Below are positions 2,846 to 19,883 of a stretch of DNA of 61,871 nt, piece after piece. Position 1 is the first letter of the stretch; the number at the start of each line of letters is the position of its first letter. The stretch is from Trichocoleus desertorum ATA4-8-CV12 (GTDB taxonomy: Bacteria > Cyanobacteriota > Cyanobacteriia > FACHB-46). A program made the translations under genes and the position numbers. The notes beneath the pieces were generated by a model. That model ran no database searches and was not told the origin of the DNA. It saw only the letters and a program-made list of their open reading frames with translations. The stretch is from contig JAHHIL010000028.1 in NCBI GenBank assembly GCA_019358975.1, positions 1 through 61,871 on the forward strand, written 5' to 3'.

Positions 2846-3730
2846 ATGAAATACTCTTTCAGCAAGCAGTTTAGACGATTGGCTCTGATGATGGGTAGCC
2901 TTCTACTGCTATGCCTGTGCAGTTTGGCACCTGTATCTGTCCAATCTCAGCCTGCCACAAAAGATGCTACCCAGGCGATCGCGCCTTCCAAGCAAACTGC
3001 GATTGCCCAAGCGCAAAATCTAGCGAAAGCCTTCAAGGAATTAGGAGTAGATGGCTCGATCATCATCTATGACAAAAAGCGCGATCGCTTTTACGAACAT
3101 AACCCGACTCGCAATACAACGGTGTTCTATCCTGCCTCTACCTTCAAAATTCTCAATGCCCTAATTTCTCTCGAAACGGGCGTAGTTCGCGATGATCTTG
3201 CCGTTCTGACTTGGGATGGTGTGCAGCGTGAAATCCCTGCTTGGAATCGAGATACTAATCTCCGTCAAGCCTTTAAAGACTCTACCGTTTGGTTCTATCA
3301 AGTCCTTGCTCGTCGCAATGGGCATGAACGAATGCAAAAATTTGTGGCGCAAGCAAACTATGGTAATCGCCAAATTGGCACACCTGACCGAATTGATCAC
3401 TTCTGGTTAGACGGCCCTCTGCAAATTACGCCTAGACAAGAAATTGAATTTCTTCAACGGTTAGAGCGAAACGATCTGCCCTTTTCAAAACGCACAATTG
3501 ACTTGGTCAAAGACATCATGATTGTGGAGCAAACACCAGACTATATCTTACGAGGAAAGACAGGCTGGGTGACGGAGGTTAACCCCGGTGTGGGTTGGTT
3601 TGTCGGTTATTTAGAGCAAAATAACAATGTGTATTTCTTTGCCACTAACATTGCTATGTCTAAAATGGAAGATGCTCCTAAGCGATTAGAACTGACTCGT
3701 CGTACTTTCAAAGCACTAGGGCTGCTCTGA
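2846..3730 (+). CDS. Class D (OXA-type) beta-lactamase homologue
   Basis: About 294 residues with an N-terminal signal peptide (LALMMGSLLLLCLCSLAPVSV), so probably periplasmic. Counting from an upstream GTG at 2837, all class D motifs are present in order. They are STFK at 101-104 (nucleophile Ser and the Lys that is carboxylated in the family), STV at 149-151, YGN at 175-177, WLDGPLQI, and KTG at 241-243 followed by W. Known class D enzymes open beta-lactam rings through an acyl-serine intermediate; activity here is inferred. I prefer the ATG at 2846 because GAGG sits just before it, although the spacing is short. The gene stands alone, without a regulator next to it. Confidence 0.85.
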   Translation: MKYSFSKQFRRLALMMGSLLLLCLCSLAPVSVQSQPATKDATQAIAPSKQTAIAQAQNLAKAFKELGVDGSIIIYDKKRDRFYEHNPTRNTTVFYPASTFKILNALISLETGVVRDDLAVLTWDGVQREIPAWNRDTNLRQAFKDSTVWFYQVLARRNGHERMQKFVAQANYGNRQIGTPDRIDHFWLDGPLQITPRQEIEFLQRLERNDLPFSKRTIDLVKDIMIVEQTPDYILRGKTGWVTEVNPGVGWFVGYLEQNNNVYFFATNIAMSKMEDAPKRLELTRRTFKALGLL

Positions 3731-3856: not shown

Positions 3857-4495
3857 CTACAGATTTAGAGATTGAACACTCAAATCCTTCAATGTAATCG
3901 TGTAATGATGTTGTTTCCCTATTGCAACAAAGGAGGCGATCGCTTCACTGGTCACCGCCACGGTTAGCATGACCAAATTCCGGGCCAGTGAATAATCGCA
4001 AACATCATCATTGACATCTGAAGGAACGCGATAAACATCATTCCAAATCACTTCAGCGTAATCAGCAGCGAGCCCAGCGTGGAGGCAAGGAGTTTTAGTC
4101 TGCTCAGCATAATCTTTCACTGCTCGCCGTGAAGTACTGTTATCAAACACATCCACAATCAGTTGACTGCCTTTGAGTAGTTGAACCACATTCGCCACAG
4201 TCAACTCTTTGGTTTCTACTTCCACCTTTGTCGCGATCGCCCGATATAAGTTATTCGCCAAAATTTTGGCTTTGAATGCACCCACATCAGAACGGTAGTA
4301 AGGCTGAGTCGAGAGATTACGTTCTTCAATGCGATCGCGCTCGATCACCTTGAGCTTACCAAACCCAGCACGAGCCAAGTTTTCAGCTAAATTTCCCCCT
4401 AACGCTCCTGCACCACAGATAGCGACAGGAAACTCCTTTAGCTTTGCCATCACAGCATCGCTTCGATAGAGTTGTTCGTGAAAAAAGATACTCAT
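3857..4495 (-). CDS. ThiF/MoeB/HesA-like adenylyltransferase-fold protein
   Basis: 212 residues, shorter than MoeB or ThiF (about 245). The nucleotide loop GAGALGGNLAENLARAGF lies at residues 28-45. It is followed by the acidic strand VIERDRIEERNLSTQPY, which matches the ATP/Mg site of E1-like enzymes, where Asp, Arg and Asn contact the nucleotide. VDVFDNSTSRRAVKDY matches the D-N-x-x-x-R region. I see no zinc-binding CxxC pairs and no clear catalytic cysteine motif, so it may adenylate without thioester chemistry. The stop of the upstream 277-residue gene is one base from this start, so the two are co-translated. The protein or small-molecule substrate is unknown. Confidence 0.75.
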   Translation of the reverse strand: MSIFFHEQLYRSDAVMAKLKEFPVAICGAGALGGNLAENLARAGFGKLKVIERDRIEERNLSTQPYYRSDVGAFKAKILANNLYRAIATKVEVETKELTVANVVQLLKGSQLIVDVFDNSTSRRAVKDYAEQTKTPCLHAGLAADYAEVIWNDVYRVPSDVNDDVCDYSLARNLVMLTVAVTSEAIASFVAIGKQHHYTITLKDLSVQSLNL

Positions 4496-4496
4496 C

Positions 4497-5330
4497 TCAC
4501 CACTCCCGGTCTTCCATTACACCCACTAACGATTGCAAGTCAAAGTCGTGGTCGCGTCCGCTTAAGCAAATACCAGAACTCACGACGGTCAGGTCATCTT
4601 TGGCGATTGCGCTCGTATGACGAACCCCATCCGATGTTGTCCAATCGACTGTCCAGTAATCCCCCCGATCCTGGAACTGGTGCAGTTCACCACCACCTAG
4701 TTTAAGCGCTTGACGTAGACGTTTTTCATCTCGTTGAGGATGAGCAAAGCCTTCAGTTCTTTGAGTGGCTAGATCGTAGAGCGATCGCATTTCGGGTGTG
4801 ATGCCCTTAAACTGCAACTCTTCAACAGGAATCAGTTGCTTGAGATTGGATTGCAGAGTTTCGGCGATCGCAGGATCATCACGGCGATCGATCTCCTCGA
4901 ACCAGCAGGAGTTACCATTCCAACGAGCGATAATCTGCTCAAAAGCAATTCCTTCGGTGACTAGATGCACAGGTACAGGTTTAATGGTTTTGAACCGCTG
5001 GCGCATGTCTGCTTCGTTGACTGGATAAGCTAACCAGGTTTGATGCTGTAAGCGATAGGCCAAGCGTAGACGAATGGTTGGCAAGTTCTGTAAGTAGGCA
5101 GCAATTTGAGGTAGATCGGCCTCTTCAATCAACATTGCGGTCTGTGCATTCACAGCCTGGAAGATGCCCCATCCCTCGAACTTTTGGGGTTTGGGAGTGA
5201 AGGTGTAAATCATACCTGCTACCCGTGTGCGAACTTTTCCACCTTTGACGCAAGGTGCCAAAAACTGAGTGGATTGTAGTTGTGCTTCGGCACTCGCAAT
5301 CTGGCTTAAGAGCTTGCGGATGTCTTGCAT
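4497..5330 (-). CDS. Conserved hypothetical protein paired with the ThiF-like gene
   Basis: 277 residues, no signal peptide and no membrane segment. I do not recognise a named domain. Visible features are a Lys/Arg-rich KGGKVRTRVAGMIYTF stretch near residue 30, a PVPVHLVTEGIAFEQIIARWNG central segment, a helical RSLYDLATQRTEGFAHPQRDEKRLRQALKLGGG region near 205-240, and a two-stranded WTVDWTTSDGVRHTSAI end. The gene sits one base upstream of the ThiF-like gene on the same strand, which implies a shared job, perhaps as substrate presenter or regulator of the adenylating protein. That is inference. Confidence 0.7.
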   Translation of the reverse strand: MQDIRKLLSQIASAEAQLQSTQFLAPCVKGGKVRTRVAGMIYTFTPKPQKFEGWGIFQAVNAQTAMLIEEADLPQIAAYLQNLPTIRLRLAYRLQHQTWLAYPVNEADMRQRFKTIKPVPVHLVTEGIAFEQIIARWNGNSCWFEEIDRRDDPAIAETLQSNLKQLIPVEELQFKGITPEMRSLYDLATQRTEGFAHPQRDEKRLRQALKLGGGELHQFQDRGDYWTVDWTTSDGVRHTSAIAKDDLTVVSSGICLSGRDHDFDLQSLVGVMEDREW

Positions 5331-8983: not shown

Positions 8984-10565
<1,582 letters not shown>

Positions 10566-10613
10566 CGATCGCGTTAAAAAGATAAAATTTTGGTCAAATT
10601 GGGCAAAGCATTA

Positions 10614-10803
10614 CCGCGCAAGTTGCAGAAGCTAGGTCAGGGCTGATTGTTGGATGCTAAATACCAAGAGCTTCCCCAGCATTTAGCATTCCTTCTCAGC
10701 ACTATTTGTGCCTGCTATCGGTCTCAGGCTTGCAGCGTATCCCTCCAGATACGCACCGTTGGTTTGGTTAGAGAGTATGTAAGCTTCTGCGATCGGGGCG
10801 CGG
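10614..10803 (-). ncRNA. Y-RNA-like structured RNA, copy B (190 nt)
   Basis: It has the same terminal CCGCGC/GCGCGG pairing and a 9-bp perfect second stem (10625-10633 with 10782-10790, GCAGAAGCT/AGCTTCTGC). On the minus strand the 5' arm continues TTACATACTC, as in copy C. The head is larger, with several hairpins: GCGTATC/GATACGC (10735-10754), GCCTG/CAGGC, GCAC/GTGC and a 9-bp ATGCTAAAT/ATTTAGCAT. The T-arm-like sequence of copy C is not conserved here. No reading frame of note is present. Confidence 0.6.
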
Positions 10804-10840
10804 CAATGATCGCCTCACTGCCAAATTGAATTAGGTCACC

Positions 10841-10957
10841 TCGTGCAAGTTGAAAAAGCAATTGTGTTATACACAGGAATCGAACCTGTAGTACTTGATC
10901 TCAAATCAAGTGCCTTACCGTTTGGCGAGTATGTATGCTTCTTCTATTAGGGCACGA
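10841..10957 (-). ncRNA. YrlA-like RNA with tRNA-like head, copy C (117 nt)
   Basis: Terminal TCGTGC/GCACGA pairing and a second stem (10852-10860 with 10936-10944, one G-U) match the plan of copies A and B. On the minus strand the head holds three tRNA arms in order. They are a D arm GCC-AAACGGTAA-GGC, an anticodon arm CTTGA-TTTGAGA-TCAAG, and a T arm ACAGG-TTCGATT-CCTGT with a canonical T loop. The acceptor is reduced to about 4 bp (ATAC/GTAT) and runs into the Y-like stem, so this is not a working tRNA. It begins 14 bases after the stop of the small gene at 10972. Confidence 0.7.
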
Positions 10958-10971
10958 AGTAGAAAGATTGT

Positions 10972-11217
<246 letters not shown>

Positions 11218-11223
11218 CTATAA

Positions 11224-11265
11224 GCATAATACAACATACTACAATCTGTCAATAGGATACTACAA
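11224..11265 (-). promoter_or_regulatory. Promoter with two ATACTACAA boxes for the Ro60-like operon
   Basis: On the minus strand a TTGACA (11252-11247) is followed 18 bases later by TATGCT, or by TATTAT at 15 bases. Two identical boxes, ATACTACAA at 11236-11244 and 11257-11265, straddle the TTGACA and are exactly 21 bp apart, two helical turns. This is a good geometry for a repressor or activator dimer of dimers. The same motif lies upstream of the NADAR gene. Confidence 0.5.
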
Positions 11266-11419
11266 AATTTTTAAGAGGTGAGAGGGTAATCATTGAAAGA
11301 ATGGCTGGATTGCTTTCGGAGTCTGGTTGTAGGCGTTACGCTTAAAGATGGTCACTACTCTCAGCAAGTCTATGAGTAGTTTCTACGCATCTCTCTCAAA
11401 TAATGCGATCGGAGTTCAC

Positions 11420-16832: not shown

Positions 16833-19800
16833 TCAGTCTTTAACTTCCGATCCTCTAGAGTCAGTCCCATAGGCTTCTAAGCTCTCCCTCATATCACTTG
16901 AGACCGCTTCATTGAGCCAGGAATCTGACTCAGTTGTAGGCTCTCCGCCTGGATCACCCGCAGGAGATTCAATCTTAAACCGGACAGGTGATCCAACCTC
17001 TGGCTCTATCTCTAAACGCTGCTGAAGTTGCTGCCGTTTCTCCTGCCGACGTTGCAGAATCCCCCACACCTGCTGCCAATGAGCCAGATCCAGACTGTAC
17101 ACCCTGAGTTTCTCCCTCTCATAGCCGGGATGAGTTCGAGACCAATGCATGGTTAACTTAATACCTATTTGGGAGAGGAGCTGGTGAATGATCTGAGTGT
17201 CACTCATCGCGCTGGTAATGGTGTAGTGGAGTGCGACTTTGATTGGTGCTGTCAGTTCTCGGGCGCGATCGGCGTAGGGTTTCAAGTCGTACTTGCACCA
17301 CTGCCAACCAGAGCGCATCTTGGCAATGAGTTCATCCATGCCAATGTTTGAGCGCAGCCAACGCCGCAGTTCGGAGCCGGAAATATCCCAAGGGCAATAC
17401 CCCTGGTTCCAGGTCGCCTGCTTCTCCAATGCTTTAGCACTGCGATCGCTGGCCACGCCTGGAAACAGTTGCATCTCCAGGTTGAGCAGCTCTCCCCGCC
17501 GTCTGCCTTCTTTGTCCCACAACACATCTTCTAAGGTGAGGCAATCGAGGCAGTAGAACTCTTTGAAGTAAAACTTGGCGACTGCTAACGATTCTTCTCG
17601 CCCCAGTCCCTCCCTTTGCTCCAACATGAGAATTTCGCTGAACCTGAGGTCTTCTGCATTTAACATCGCCTCCGCATCTACCTCCTGCTGTTCTTGGCGA
17701 GCGATCGCCAGCAGCGCTTTCATCGCTGAGTTGTTTTCCCGATCTTCGATGCTCACTTGATTACCTTCAAATCGCAGTCGTACTAGTAGGGCATCCCTCA
17801 AGTGATACATGGCGAAGTTCTGTTCAGCAGCAATCCGGCAAAACAGGTTGAGATGGGGATCACTCTGCCAGTCGTAGTGAGTGACTTCCCCGGTGACATC
17901 TTCTTTCAAGCTGGAACGAATCAGTTGAATGGTGGCCGTAGTGCGTTGCTGGAGATGGTCTTTGAGCTCCAGGATATTGGGGGAACGACTCACCTTCGAG
18001 AAGTTGCTACCTCGCTGGGCACACCAGACGAGGCGCTCAACCGGTTCTCGAACTCGACCCAGGGCCTGGGCCATATCTGCGTCGGTGCTGGAGGTTCCGG
18101 TAAAAATGCCGTAGACCTTGGAGATGATGCTTTGAGCTTCAATGCTGACTCCCGTCGCCACCGAGGGAGAACAAATAATCAGGTCATATTCACCTCGTTG
18201 CAGCACCACGTCTGGAGTTTGAATAAATTCGCGTTCGCAATCCCCGCCGCTGGTTTCGGAGTTGACGAGCAACAAGCGCTGGTGGGGAGCCTCTTGGCCA
18301 ATCAGGCGGGCGATCGCCTTACTGGTTCCCTTACTATCAGTGGCGACGAAGAGAACTTTGCCGCGTGCCAAGGATTGCATCTCTGCTAGCAGTTTTCCAG
18401 TAATGGCGCTGCGATCGGGGGAGCGAATAAAGCGCACGGGGTAGCCTGCGGACTGGTAGGCGTTGCGGATTAAGAAAATGGGGGTGTCATCGCCTCGCAA
18501 CTCTTTCAGGTAATGCAGAGTCGCGTTGTCAAGATCGGCGTCAGCCACAATGACGCGACGAGCTACTCGAATCAGTTCGCGTAACCGTGATAGCAGCACC
18601 GGACGTTTGCCATCCTTGGCACAGGTCGAACTCGTCAGCAGGTGGCGGATGACCTGCACCACTTCATCGAGGATGAGATCACATTCGCTGAACTTGTTGG
18701 GATCAATGCTGAGTAAGGAGTCCACACACAGTCCGACTCGCAGGGTGTAACCGGCTCCATTGATAAACTCTCCCTTGACCTTATCGAGATCCCCTTTGTA
18801 GTCCAGTCCCAAGCGAGCGGACAGGTTGCGCATCAGTGCGATGCGGTGCCCTCCCGCGATCGCTTTTTCAGAATCTTGGAGTAGTGCCTGAATTTGTTTG
18901 GTTTTCCCAGTGCCTTTGGCACTCGCGATCGCCACAATGCCGCTGTCAGGAAGATGGTTGAGGACGAGAGTGGACAGGTCAGCGGTGGTGACTTTAACTG
19001 CGGCGGGATAGGTCAACCGATGCTCTAAGCGTTGCCAGATCAACCAGTGCTGCAAAGGCAGTGCCTGGTCGTAAGCACTCTGCCAAGCGGCAGCGCCACA
19101 GCGCACCATCAAATCATCGACCCCTTTGCCTTGAGCCGCTTTCCACGTTGCGACACTGACTAAGTTGCCTGCTTGACCTAGCAATCCTCCCAAGCGATAC
19201 AGGGCCACGGACACTCGTTGTTGGGTCGCTTCCTTTTCGTCCTGGTCAAACGCCAAAACGAAGCGGCGATCCGGGATAGCAAATCTTGCAGCATCGGGAA
19301 TCAACCGTCGAGTGCCATCGAGTAACCTTTGATAACCGCCGTTGACCCCGTAGAACGCCAAGGGCACGAAACCCTGACTCAGTAGCGAGAGCGCCTTTTT
19401 ACCCCCTTCAGTCGGCACCAGGGGAATTTCAGGGTGTGCCTCAACCCAATCCCAGAAGGAGCCAAACAGAGGAATTTCTACGCCATAGCGCCGACCGATT
19501 AACTGTCGAATTTCAGGTGGGACCGGGGGGAGATAGGCGCGGGAACCATTGCCGACAGGAGTTTCGTACTTCTGAATTTTACCTTTGCTATTGTGCCGGG
19601 GATGACTCAGTTTTGCCTGCCAGCAGGAACCATCTTCATTGATGAGTAGAACGGCATACAGATTGGTACGGGCCTGATACCCAAAGCGAGTCACATGCCA
19701 ATTCAACGCTTCGTGGATGGGATAGGTAACCTCACCACCCGGGAGCGATTCAGTATCGCCAACCAATCGGGTTGCAACTTGGTACAGGCAGGGCGCGATC

Positions 19801-19883
19801 GCGCTACCTTCTACAAATTCTTGTTGGATTTGCTGCGCAAACTCATCTCGGTGAGTTGAAGGAAGAGAGACTAGGAACGTCAT
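16833..19883 (-). CDS. Plasmid replication protein, CyRepA1 family (DUF3854 plus helicase-like ATPase)
   Basis: 1016 residues. The N-terminal third is a DUF3854/TOPRIM-like primase region: PLVPTEGGKKALSLLSQG at 155-171 (acidic Glu), LAFDQDEK at 210-217 and GKGVDDLM near 252-259. The middle is a P-loop ATPase with Walker A ASAKGTGKT at 320-328 and Walker B LILDEVVQ at 403-410. Helicase-like features follow: VADADLDNATL, LFVATDSKGTSKAIARLI, and MAQALGRVREPVERLVW as an arginine-finger-like motif VI. This layout is characteristic of cyanobacterial plasmid initiators that prime and unwind the origin. The upstream 1-kb region holds origin-like repeats. The C-terminal 40 residues are acidic and low in complexity. 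Confidence 0.88.
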   Translation of the reverse strand: MTFLVSLPSTHRDEFAQQIQQEFVEGSAIAPCLYQVATRLVGDTESLPGGEVTYPIHEALNWHVTRFGYQARTNLYAVLLINEDGSCWQAKLSHPRHNSKGKIQKYETPVGNGSRAYLPPVPPEIRQLIGRRYGVEIPLFGSFWDWVEAHPEIPLVPTEGGKKALSLLSQGFVPLAFYGVNGGYQRLLDGTRRLIPDAARFAIPDRRFVLAFDQDEKEATQQRVSVALYRLGGLLGQAGNLVSVATWKAAQGKGVDDLMVRCGAAAWQSAYDQALPLQHWLIWQRLEHRLTYPAAVKVTTADLSTLVLNHLPDSGIVAIASAKGTGKTKQIQALLQDSEKAIAGGHRIALMRNLSARLGLDYKGDLDKVKGEFINGAGYTLRVGLCVDSLLSIDPNKFSECDLILDEVVQVIRHLLTSSTCAKDGKRPVLLSRLRELIRVARRVIVADADLDNATLHYLKELRGDDTPIFLIRNAYQSAGYPVRFIRSPDRSAITGKLLAEMQSLARGKVLFVATDSKGTSKAIARLIGQEAPHQRLLLVNSETSGGDCEREFIQTPDVVLQRGEYDLIICSPSVATGVSIEAQSIISKVYGIFTGTSSTDADMAQALGRVREPVERLVWCAQRGSNFSKVSRSPNILELKDHLQQRTTATIQLIRSSLKEDVTGEVTHYDWQSDPHLNLFCRIAAEQNFAMYHLRDALLVRLRFEGNQVSIEDRENNSAMKALLAIARQEQQEVDAEAMLNAEDLRFSEILMLEQREGLGREESLAVAKFYFKEFYCLDCLTLEDVLWDKEGRRRGELLNLEMQLFPGVASDRSAKALEKQATWNQGYCPWDISGSELRRWLRSNIGMDELIAKMRSGWQWCKYDLKPYADRARELTAPIKVALHYTITSAMSDTQIIHQLLSQIGIKLTMHWSRTHPGYEREKLRVYSLDLAHWQQVWGILQRRQEKRQQLQQRLEIEPEVGSPVRFKIESPAGDPGGEPTTESDSWLNEAVSSDMRESLEAYGTDSRGSEVKD

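Follow-up and report, generated by a model that had tools for sequence, protein, structure and literature searches.

RNA C, which lies on the minus strand at positions 10838..10960, is very probably a Y-type RNA of a divergent Ro60 system in which a tRNA body is joined to the Y stem through its acceptor side, and we assign this identification a probability of roughly 0.9. In the window, by which is meant the whole 61,871-base stretch of DNA that was analyzed, exactly three Y-stem units were found (RNA A, RNA B, and RNA C, all on the minus strand), and the best explanation of the locus as a whole, which we favor at somewhat better than even odds, is that of three tandem Y-type RNAs, with RNA C as a Ro-docked, uncharged look-alike of a tRNA. 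The initial annotation had read RNA C as a tRNA-mimicking Y RNA with no usable acceptor stem, and the present analyses agree with this reading; RNA C is not a decoding tRNA, and it lies beside a Ro60-family gene, which was recognized by its fold. That bacterial Y RNAs mimic tRNA is already known, as stated in the available part of a review (PMC8394870) and, reportedly, by Chen et al. 2014. Within the literature searched, three features are new, namely a join at the acceptor side combined with an anticodon that varies, the placement in tRNA arrays, and sister RNAs that resemble rRNA; no paper on this Ro-like/RNA C system was found in that literature, a result that speaks for that scope only.

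Folding, a scan for Y-stem units, and a covariance model were used to delimit RNA C. The fold of 10838-10960 reached -38.6 kcal/mol (z -4.40), which was equalled by 0 of 200 shuffles, and an RNA on the plus strand was rejected because its fold is weaker (z -2.41 versus -4.40 on the minus strand). The unit scan places RNA C at 10836-10962, and an RNA C-type covariance model of 59 relatives scores the same interval at 117.6 bits, with RNA C itself being among the 59 sequences of the alignment. As is general for bacterial Y RNAs, RNA C consists of a long stem formed by its 5' and 3' ends and a separate distal module. The outer stem pairs 10952-10960 with 10838-10846 and the inner stem pairs 10936-10944 with 10852-10860 (both on the minus strand); the conserved elements of the Y stem are the outer helix, a CC-rich internal loop, the inner helix, and the UUACAUACU and ACUUG boxes. 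The distal module is a tRNA-like core (10869..10932, minus strand) that matches the Rfam tRNA model RF00005 at 44.8 bits (E 2.5e-6, 10869-10932), and ARAGORN calls a tRNA-Ser(UGA) at 10866-10936 on the minus strand, the sole tRNA call in the window, within which this program found no tRNA array. The D arm (10912-10926), the anticodon arm (10894-10910; 5 bp with the loop UUUGAGA), and the T arm (10873-10889; 5 pairs with the loop UUCGAUU) follow one another on the minus strand. This is the series of D arm, 7-nt anticodon loop, and perfect T arm that had been described earlier with no strand given, and both ARAGORN and RF00005 place it on the minus strand. The triplet at the anticodon position (10901..10903, minus strand; ARAGORN), which varies among relatives, is UGA, and no long variable arm accompanies it, as the initial annotation had read from the letters.

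The acceptor side of RNA C is short and closed. The RF00005 match covers only model positions 4-67 of 71, and because it starts at model position 4, the first acceptor pairs are absent. The acceptor-like helix is AUAC/GUAU, with four pairs and a fifth position that is C-A here and C-G in most relatives. The earlier estimate of about 4 bp was accurate, and the earlier conclusion that no usable acceptor exists holds, with a helix of 4-5 bp enclosed by further stem; the description of this helix as merging into the Y-like stem is only roughly right, as a few unpaired bases on each side precede the inner stem.

Relatives of the locus were compared to assess how widely this architecture is conserved. 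The locus set consists of the best 80 of 156 protein relatives in genome contigs, all 80 of them cyanobacterial according to their record titles, which together with the window gives 81 loci. The 4 kb upstream of each gene was scanned for Y-stem units with at most one mismatch per box, so that weaker units are missed. On the coding strand, 322 upstream units were found in 79 of the 81 loci, whereas the reverse strand gave 7 units, shuffled sequence 3, and downstream sequence 29, of which 27 are rRNA-like members of this system. The 72 loci whose upstream sequence reaches 2,500 nt or more carry a median of 4 units (range 2-7), and by types that were assigned with simple patterns, 70 of these loci have an RNA C-type unit, 54 a short A-type unit, 48 a unit in YrlA order, and 29 a 23S-like unit.

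The structure of RNA C is maintained by covariation. Alignment A1 comprises 59 of 115 class I units with a tRNA call, the window included, over 135 columns; close relatives were excluded manually, and the 10 distinct units whose distal part exceeds 82 nt are all absent from it. With a 38-pair structure, 94.8% of cells pair, a figure favored by the structure having been drawn from the A1 sequences themselves, and 26 of the 38 pairs show double changes. None of 500 shuffles reached any of the covariation measures, and structures slid along the alignment pair only 32.6-52.1% of cells. Pairing is 92.3% in the outer helix, 96.2% in the inner helix, 89.8% in the D arm, 96.3% in the anticodon arm, and 100% in the T arm; the acceptor-like helix is 95.2% paired and mostly invariant in sequence. 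Decay of the D and T arms in homologues, which the initial annotation had named as evidence against its reading, was looked for in A1, and both arms proved to be kept by covariation. Eight RNA C-type units carry a long variable arm like that of class II tRNAs (L056, L059, L060, L075, L080, L082, L086, and L087). A T arm that is seemingly interrupted by a GGTACCC-type repeat was seen in L017, L026, L027, L028, L034, L037, L038, L082, and L089.

Downstream of RNA C and on the same strand, positions 8995..10428 encode a protein of 477 amino acids with a helical-repeat (HEAT) ring and a vWA domain. The AlphaFold2 model of this protein (pLDDT 79.2, pTM 0.75) retrieved Ro60 and Rsr structures as the first-ranking Foldseek matches (1yvp, E 5.1e-11), and VIA aligned 434 residues with Ro60 at Z 21.1, rmsd 4.4, and 15% identity, compared to Z 13.8 and below for unrelated vWA proteins. 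The fold, ring and vWA alike, is thus common to this protein and to Ro60/Rsr (NF041674, PF05731) over 434 residues; however, at about 15% identity to the Rsr/TROVE proteins it is invisible to Pfam TROVE (PF05731), which gave no match at E up to 10. PHROG 850, an RNA-binding protein family, matches it at E 1.7e-5. We conclude from the predicted model that the product of 8995-10428 is Ro60-like by fold, a strongly diverged relative of human Ro60, and is not a Pfam TROVE member. RNA C hence has the Ro60-family neighbor that is expected of a Y RNA, and this neighborhood is conserved in 79 of 81 loci.

Two further Y-stem units lie between RNA C and the Ro-like gene. RNA A is a short unit (10483..10571, minus strand; fold z -4.25, unit scan) whose 3' edge is 54 nt before the Ro-like start codon, and it may be part of the mRNA leader; a short unit lies within 150 nt of the Ro-like start in 52 of 81 loci. 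RNA B (10609..10808, minus strand) was found by the unit scan and has a 150-nt distal module with repeats D1 and D2; it was considered as an rRNA mimic and rejected, as nhmmer gave no match to E. coli 16S, 23S, or 5S rRNA at E up to 1. Upstream of RNA C, a 66-aa partner ORF that ends in Tyr-Gly (10972..11172, minus strand; ORF list and AlphaFold2) stops 11 nt before the RNA and was detected at 69 of the 81 loci. Its AlphaFold2 model is beta-grasp-like (pLDDT 91.7), but its structural matches are weak: the top VIA score, against PB1 and ubiquitin-like folds, is Z 5.3, and Foldseek does no better than E 0.3. The link to ubiquitin-like proteins is suggestive, a lead that comes from the predicted model. 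A ThiF-like gene (3857-4495, minus strand) is shared by 43 of 80 loci and a 277-aa gene (4497-5330, minus strand) by 49 of 80. The contig is probably a plasmid because it encodes a CyRepA1 plasmid replication protein (16833-19883, minus strand; E 8.3e-109). A promoter-like site at 11223-11252 on the minus strand does not exceed the chance level (1 site versus 1.4 expected), and RNA C may therefore be part of a longer transcript; a search for intrinsic terminators found none.

The association between RNA C and the Ro-like protein was also measured in a survey of 194 cyanobacterial genomes, in which the Ro-like protein is encoded by 20 and a canonical TROVE protein by 36. The RNA C model produced 33 matches of at least 90 bits in 23 genomes, and the best match of any other type reached 55.9 bits. 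RNA C-type RNAs at or above 90 bits are present in 18 of the 20 genomes with the protein and in 5 of the 174 others (Fisher p 5.8e-19), an overlap that was read by eye at this cut-off with a model trained partly on the same species; the two genomes with the Ro-like protein and no such RNA are G098 and G165.

Relatives of RNA C are linked to tRNA arrays. Eleven plasmid records from Nostoc, Calothrix, Kovacikia, and Tolypothrix hold relatives at 60-80% identity, and in the three that were read (L156-L158) the relative lies within an array of 19-24 ARAGORN genes, directly after tRNA-Trp. Thirteen further matches, taken from the 33 at 90 bits or more, were read as well: 11 are surrounded by 9 or more tRNA calls within 4 kb (the exceptions are L160 and L169) and 10 adjoin tRNA-Trp (the exceptions are L160, L165, and L169). 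In Kovacikia, the tRNA array is succeeded by the small ORF, then by the Y units, and then by the Ro-like gene. An RNA C relative sits next to tRNA-Trp in arrays such as the trn operon of Anabaena; however, ordinary tRNAs of these arrays have full acceptor stems and RNA C does not. The Anabaena array is expressed only in response to translation inhibitors, and TrcR represses both the array and rtcB, according to the available part of one report (PMC10272220). In the portion of another that was available (PMC6424891), a Chlorogloeopsis gene for a TROVE-domain protein, which may be a canonical or a divergent Ro, rose strongly after erythromycin.

Other identities of RNA C can be weighed against these data. 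Since ARAGORN and Rfam both call a tRNA, RNA C might be a tRNA-Ser, either functional or in decay, or else a suppressor-like tRNA that the plasmid has acquired, a reading that we regard as exceedingly improbable. A decoding tRNA has a 7-bp acceptor stem and a free 3' end for CCA, and tRNA-Ser has a long variable arm in addition; RNA C has only the enclosed helix described above and lacks a long variable arm, its tRNA body sits inside a longer conserved stem, and across C units the acceptor-like helix is at most 5 bp, with a simple CCA-after-helix pattern in 1 of 131. Among 42 tRNA-model matches in the genome, RNA C has the second-lowest score and is the sole match that does not span the model, and a true tRNA-Ser(UGA) is encoded elsewhere (G000:C34:45731-45815, 64.8 bits; L110, an 87-base ARAGORN call). 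This genuine gene, together with arms that are kept by covariation in 59 relatives despite 23 full anticodon triplets, led to rejection of a working or decayed tRNA. No claim is made that the body derives from one particular tRNA, as its best blastn matches are split, mostly among tRNA-Asn; one of these best matches, in locus L062, is itself a missed unit. Another possibility, that RNA C is an ordinary YrlA member with the same architecture and RYPER role, has a small chance of being correct. RNA C has in common with YrlA the mimicry of tRNA, a Y stem and a tRNA body with T and D arms beside a Ro60-family gene; furthermore, RNAs in YrlA order occur in the same arrays of relatives, where the T arm appears, from sequence patterns, to lie in the 5' half of 53 of 73 units with a distal part of 91-110 nt, and none occurs in the window. 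The topology of RNA C is nevertheless the reverse. In YrlA (RF02553), the body is permuted, running from the T arm through an acceptor-like hairpin to the D arm, and the Y stem replaces the anticodon arm, whereas RNA C keeps the ordinary order of D, anticodon, and T with its anticodon arm, and has the Y stem in place of the acceptor. The YrlA order was seen with RF02553 on a Gordonia phage locus (52.1 bits, under the gathering cut-off of 69 bits); with an E limit of 5 the same model did not match RNA C, and with a limit of 0.001 it had 0 matches across the genome. YrlA membership was therefore rejected by topology and by score, and the earlier attribution of RNA C to the YrlA-type design was not upheld.

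Two further alternatives concern what the tRNA body is for. The body could serve as punctuation at which tRNA-processing enzymes cut, freeing the neighboring mRNA and RNAs from one transcript, and such a role would fit the position of RNA C, which is flanked on its own strand by the small ORF and the Ro-like gene, as well as the relatives inside tRNA arrays. We give it only a slight chance, because the acceptor stem that is read by RNase P and RNase Z is missing and the enclosing outer stem is as conserved as the tRNA body. More probable than this, but still unlikely, is the proposal that RNA C is a decoy or sensor for anticodon nucleases or other anticodon-reading attackers in an arms race, with the Ro ring removing or repairing the cut RNA. 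In A1, the anticodon position holds 26 strings (23 full triplets and 3 with a gap), and U33 and a purine at 37 are each present in 57 of 59 sequences. Among pairs of relatives that are at least 90% identical elsewhere, the anticodon positions differ at 514/1251 (0.41) and 397/874 (0.45), compared to 0.06-0.07 for other positions of the same pairs, which makes the anticodon about seven times as changeable. By parsimony on protein-gene trees, none of the 128 columns changes more often than position 34 in either group of relatives (22 and 16 changes, median 2), and U33 changes once. RNA 2'-phosphotransferase-like ORFs, as we take them to be, follow the Ro-like gene in L010 and L075, which would also favor nuclease attack. 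On the same trees, however, positions 35 and 36 rank lower, at 11 and 7 in one group of relatives and at 3 and 42 in the second, and further columns of the loop and linker change almost as quickly; the triplets include CUA, which reads a stop codon; and Salmonella YrlA is not cut by anticodon nuclease, according to the available part of that report (PMC7790460). Plain loss of constraint explains the data as well, and the variation, judged from sequence, fits either loss of constraint or diversification. ARAGORN gave 30 labels to 124 units (the label of the window was added by hand from its separate result), the commonest being tRNA-Pyl(CUA) with 23, and many cyanobacterial calls of tRNA-Pyl(CUA) and of tRNAs with odd anticodons may thus be Y RNAs.

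The acceptor-joined Y RNA of a divergent Ro60 system that we favor suggests a mechanism, which we hold tentatively and at slightly below even odds: RNA C would be an adaptor or decoy for a tRNA-recognizing partner under translation stress. As one of three tandem Y-type RNAs of this cyanobacterial system, RNA C would use the conserved two-part stem as a handle that docks on the Ro ring. The stem is presumably unlike the Ro-binding motif of vertebrates or Deinococcus, and it is for this reason genetic linkage that points to docking. The far end is a class I tRNA body that, because it is joined through its acceptor side, could not be charged or enter the charging/EF-Tu cycle; its D, T, and anticodon arms would nonetheless be accessible to proteins that bind tRNA. 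Produced together with the stress-induced tRNA arrays, or in a similar way, RNA C could either bring such a partner to the Ro ring or occupy it; candidate partners are a modifying enzyme, an exonuclease such as PNPase, or a tRNA nuclease, and the purpose would be tRNA quality control during translation stress. In the known design, that of YrlA, the Ro stem replaces the anticodon arm, and RNA C has the opposite join and keeps a fast-changing triplet. This join makes the purpose of the tRNA mimic testable by asking which partner needs the anticodon arm.

Sister RNAs at related loci resemble those parts of 23S rRNA that contact tRNA and factors. A set of 33 units, all 131-152 nt in length except for one that is longer, matches 23S rRNA over helices that we take to be H69-H71 (E 1.3e-6 to 1.4e-6 in a profile search of 25 kb). 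They are found at 33 loci, among them L014, L015, L018, and L020, about 1.3-3 kb upstream of the Ro-like gene. The sequence CTAAGGTA is present in 30 of the 33 units and a 3' GGTAAGARC stretch in 27 of the 33; because this stretch resembles E. coli 23S just before the matched piece, the H69-H71 piece looks permuted, apparently at the H69 loop. The 23S-like unit of L062 gave nothing with Rfam or with blastn against E. coli and was matched only through the profile of the 33 units versus 23S; it is without the CTAAGGTA box, even at one mismatch. A search of the genome itself for 23S found none in the assembly. Downstream of the Ro-like gene, 27 of 29 units carry motifs of what are presumably the sarcin-ricin loop or the GTPase centre. 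Units that join the two were found downstream in 27 cases, in L012, L013, L016, L053, L060, L075, and others, and in L155 at 11196-11407. A profile of the 27 downstream units and one from Kovacikia matched the GTPase centre of E. coli at E 5.6e-12 and the sarcin-ricin loop only at 0.079; the reversed profile gave no match. Neither kind of rRNA-like unit (23S H69-H71 or GTPase centre/sarcin-ricin) was found in the window.

The rRNA-like sisters and the tRNA-array setting, of the Anabaena type that is induced by ribosome inhibitors, point to one translation stress system. It is possible, and about as probable in our judgment as a coin toss that leans slightly against, that filamentous cyanobacteria and some giant phages have a second, unrecognized Ro60 system in which a panel of Y RNAs shows pieces of the translation machinery on one Ro-docking stem. 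The members of this panel would be a tRNA that is attached through its acceptor and whose anticodon varies (RNA C), a tRNA attached on its anticodon side (the YrlA order), 23S H69-H71, and the joined GTPase centre and sarcin-ricin loop; the window would hold the tRNA member and two others, with the rRNA members being seen in relatives. Such RNAs could be decoys or gauges for binders, modifiers, and cutters of tRNA and rRNA that are deployed with stress-induced tRNA arrays. In phages, the uncultured 595-kb phage LR756511 encodes a protein that is 48% identical to the Ro-like protein, and a viral contig encodes one that is 43% identical, both with Y-stem units. The Y-stem RNAs that accompany giant phage relatives of the Ro-like gene (L150 from LR756511, at 132-541 and 2688-2923; L090, at 2803-2983 on the minus strand) include tRNA bodies in permuted order, and one of these RNAs has an acceptor stem that is almost complete.

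The genome also encodes a canonical Rsr, on another contig (G000:C4; NF041674, E 1.8e-92). Two tandem tRNA-like RNAs lie upstream of it (L144, at about 2968-3094 and 3124-3248); their acceptor stem measures about 7 bp, and their anticodon arm is extended by a long insertion. These RNAs and RNA C are both tRNA mimics beside a Ro60 gene; however, the arrangement is reversed, as the L144 RNAs keep the acceptor and RNA C keeps the anticodon arm, and one cell thus has two Ro systems with tRNA-like RNAs joined at opposite ends. Of the two L144 RNAs, only the second (3124-3248) reaches the Rfam tRNA model.
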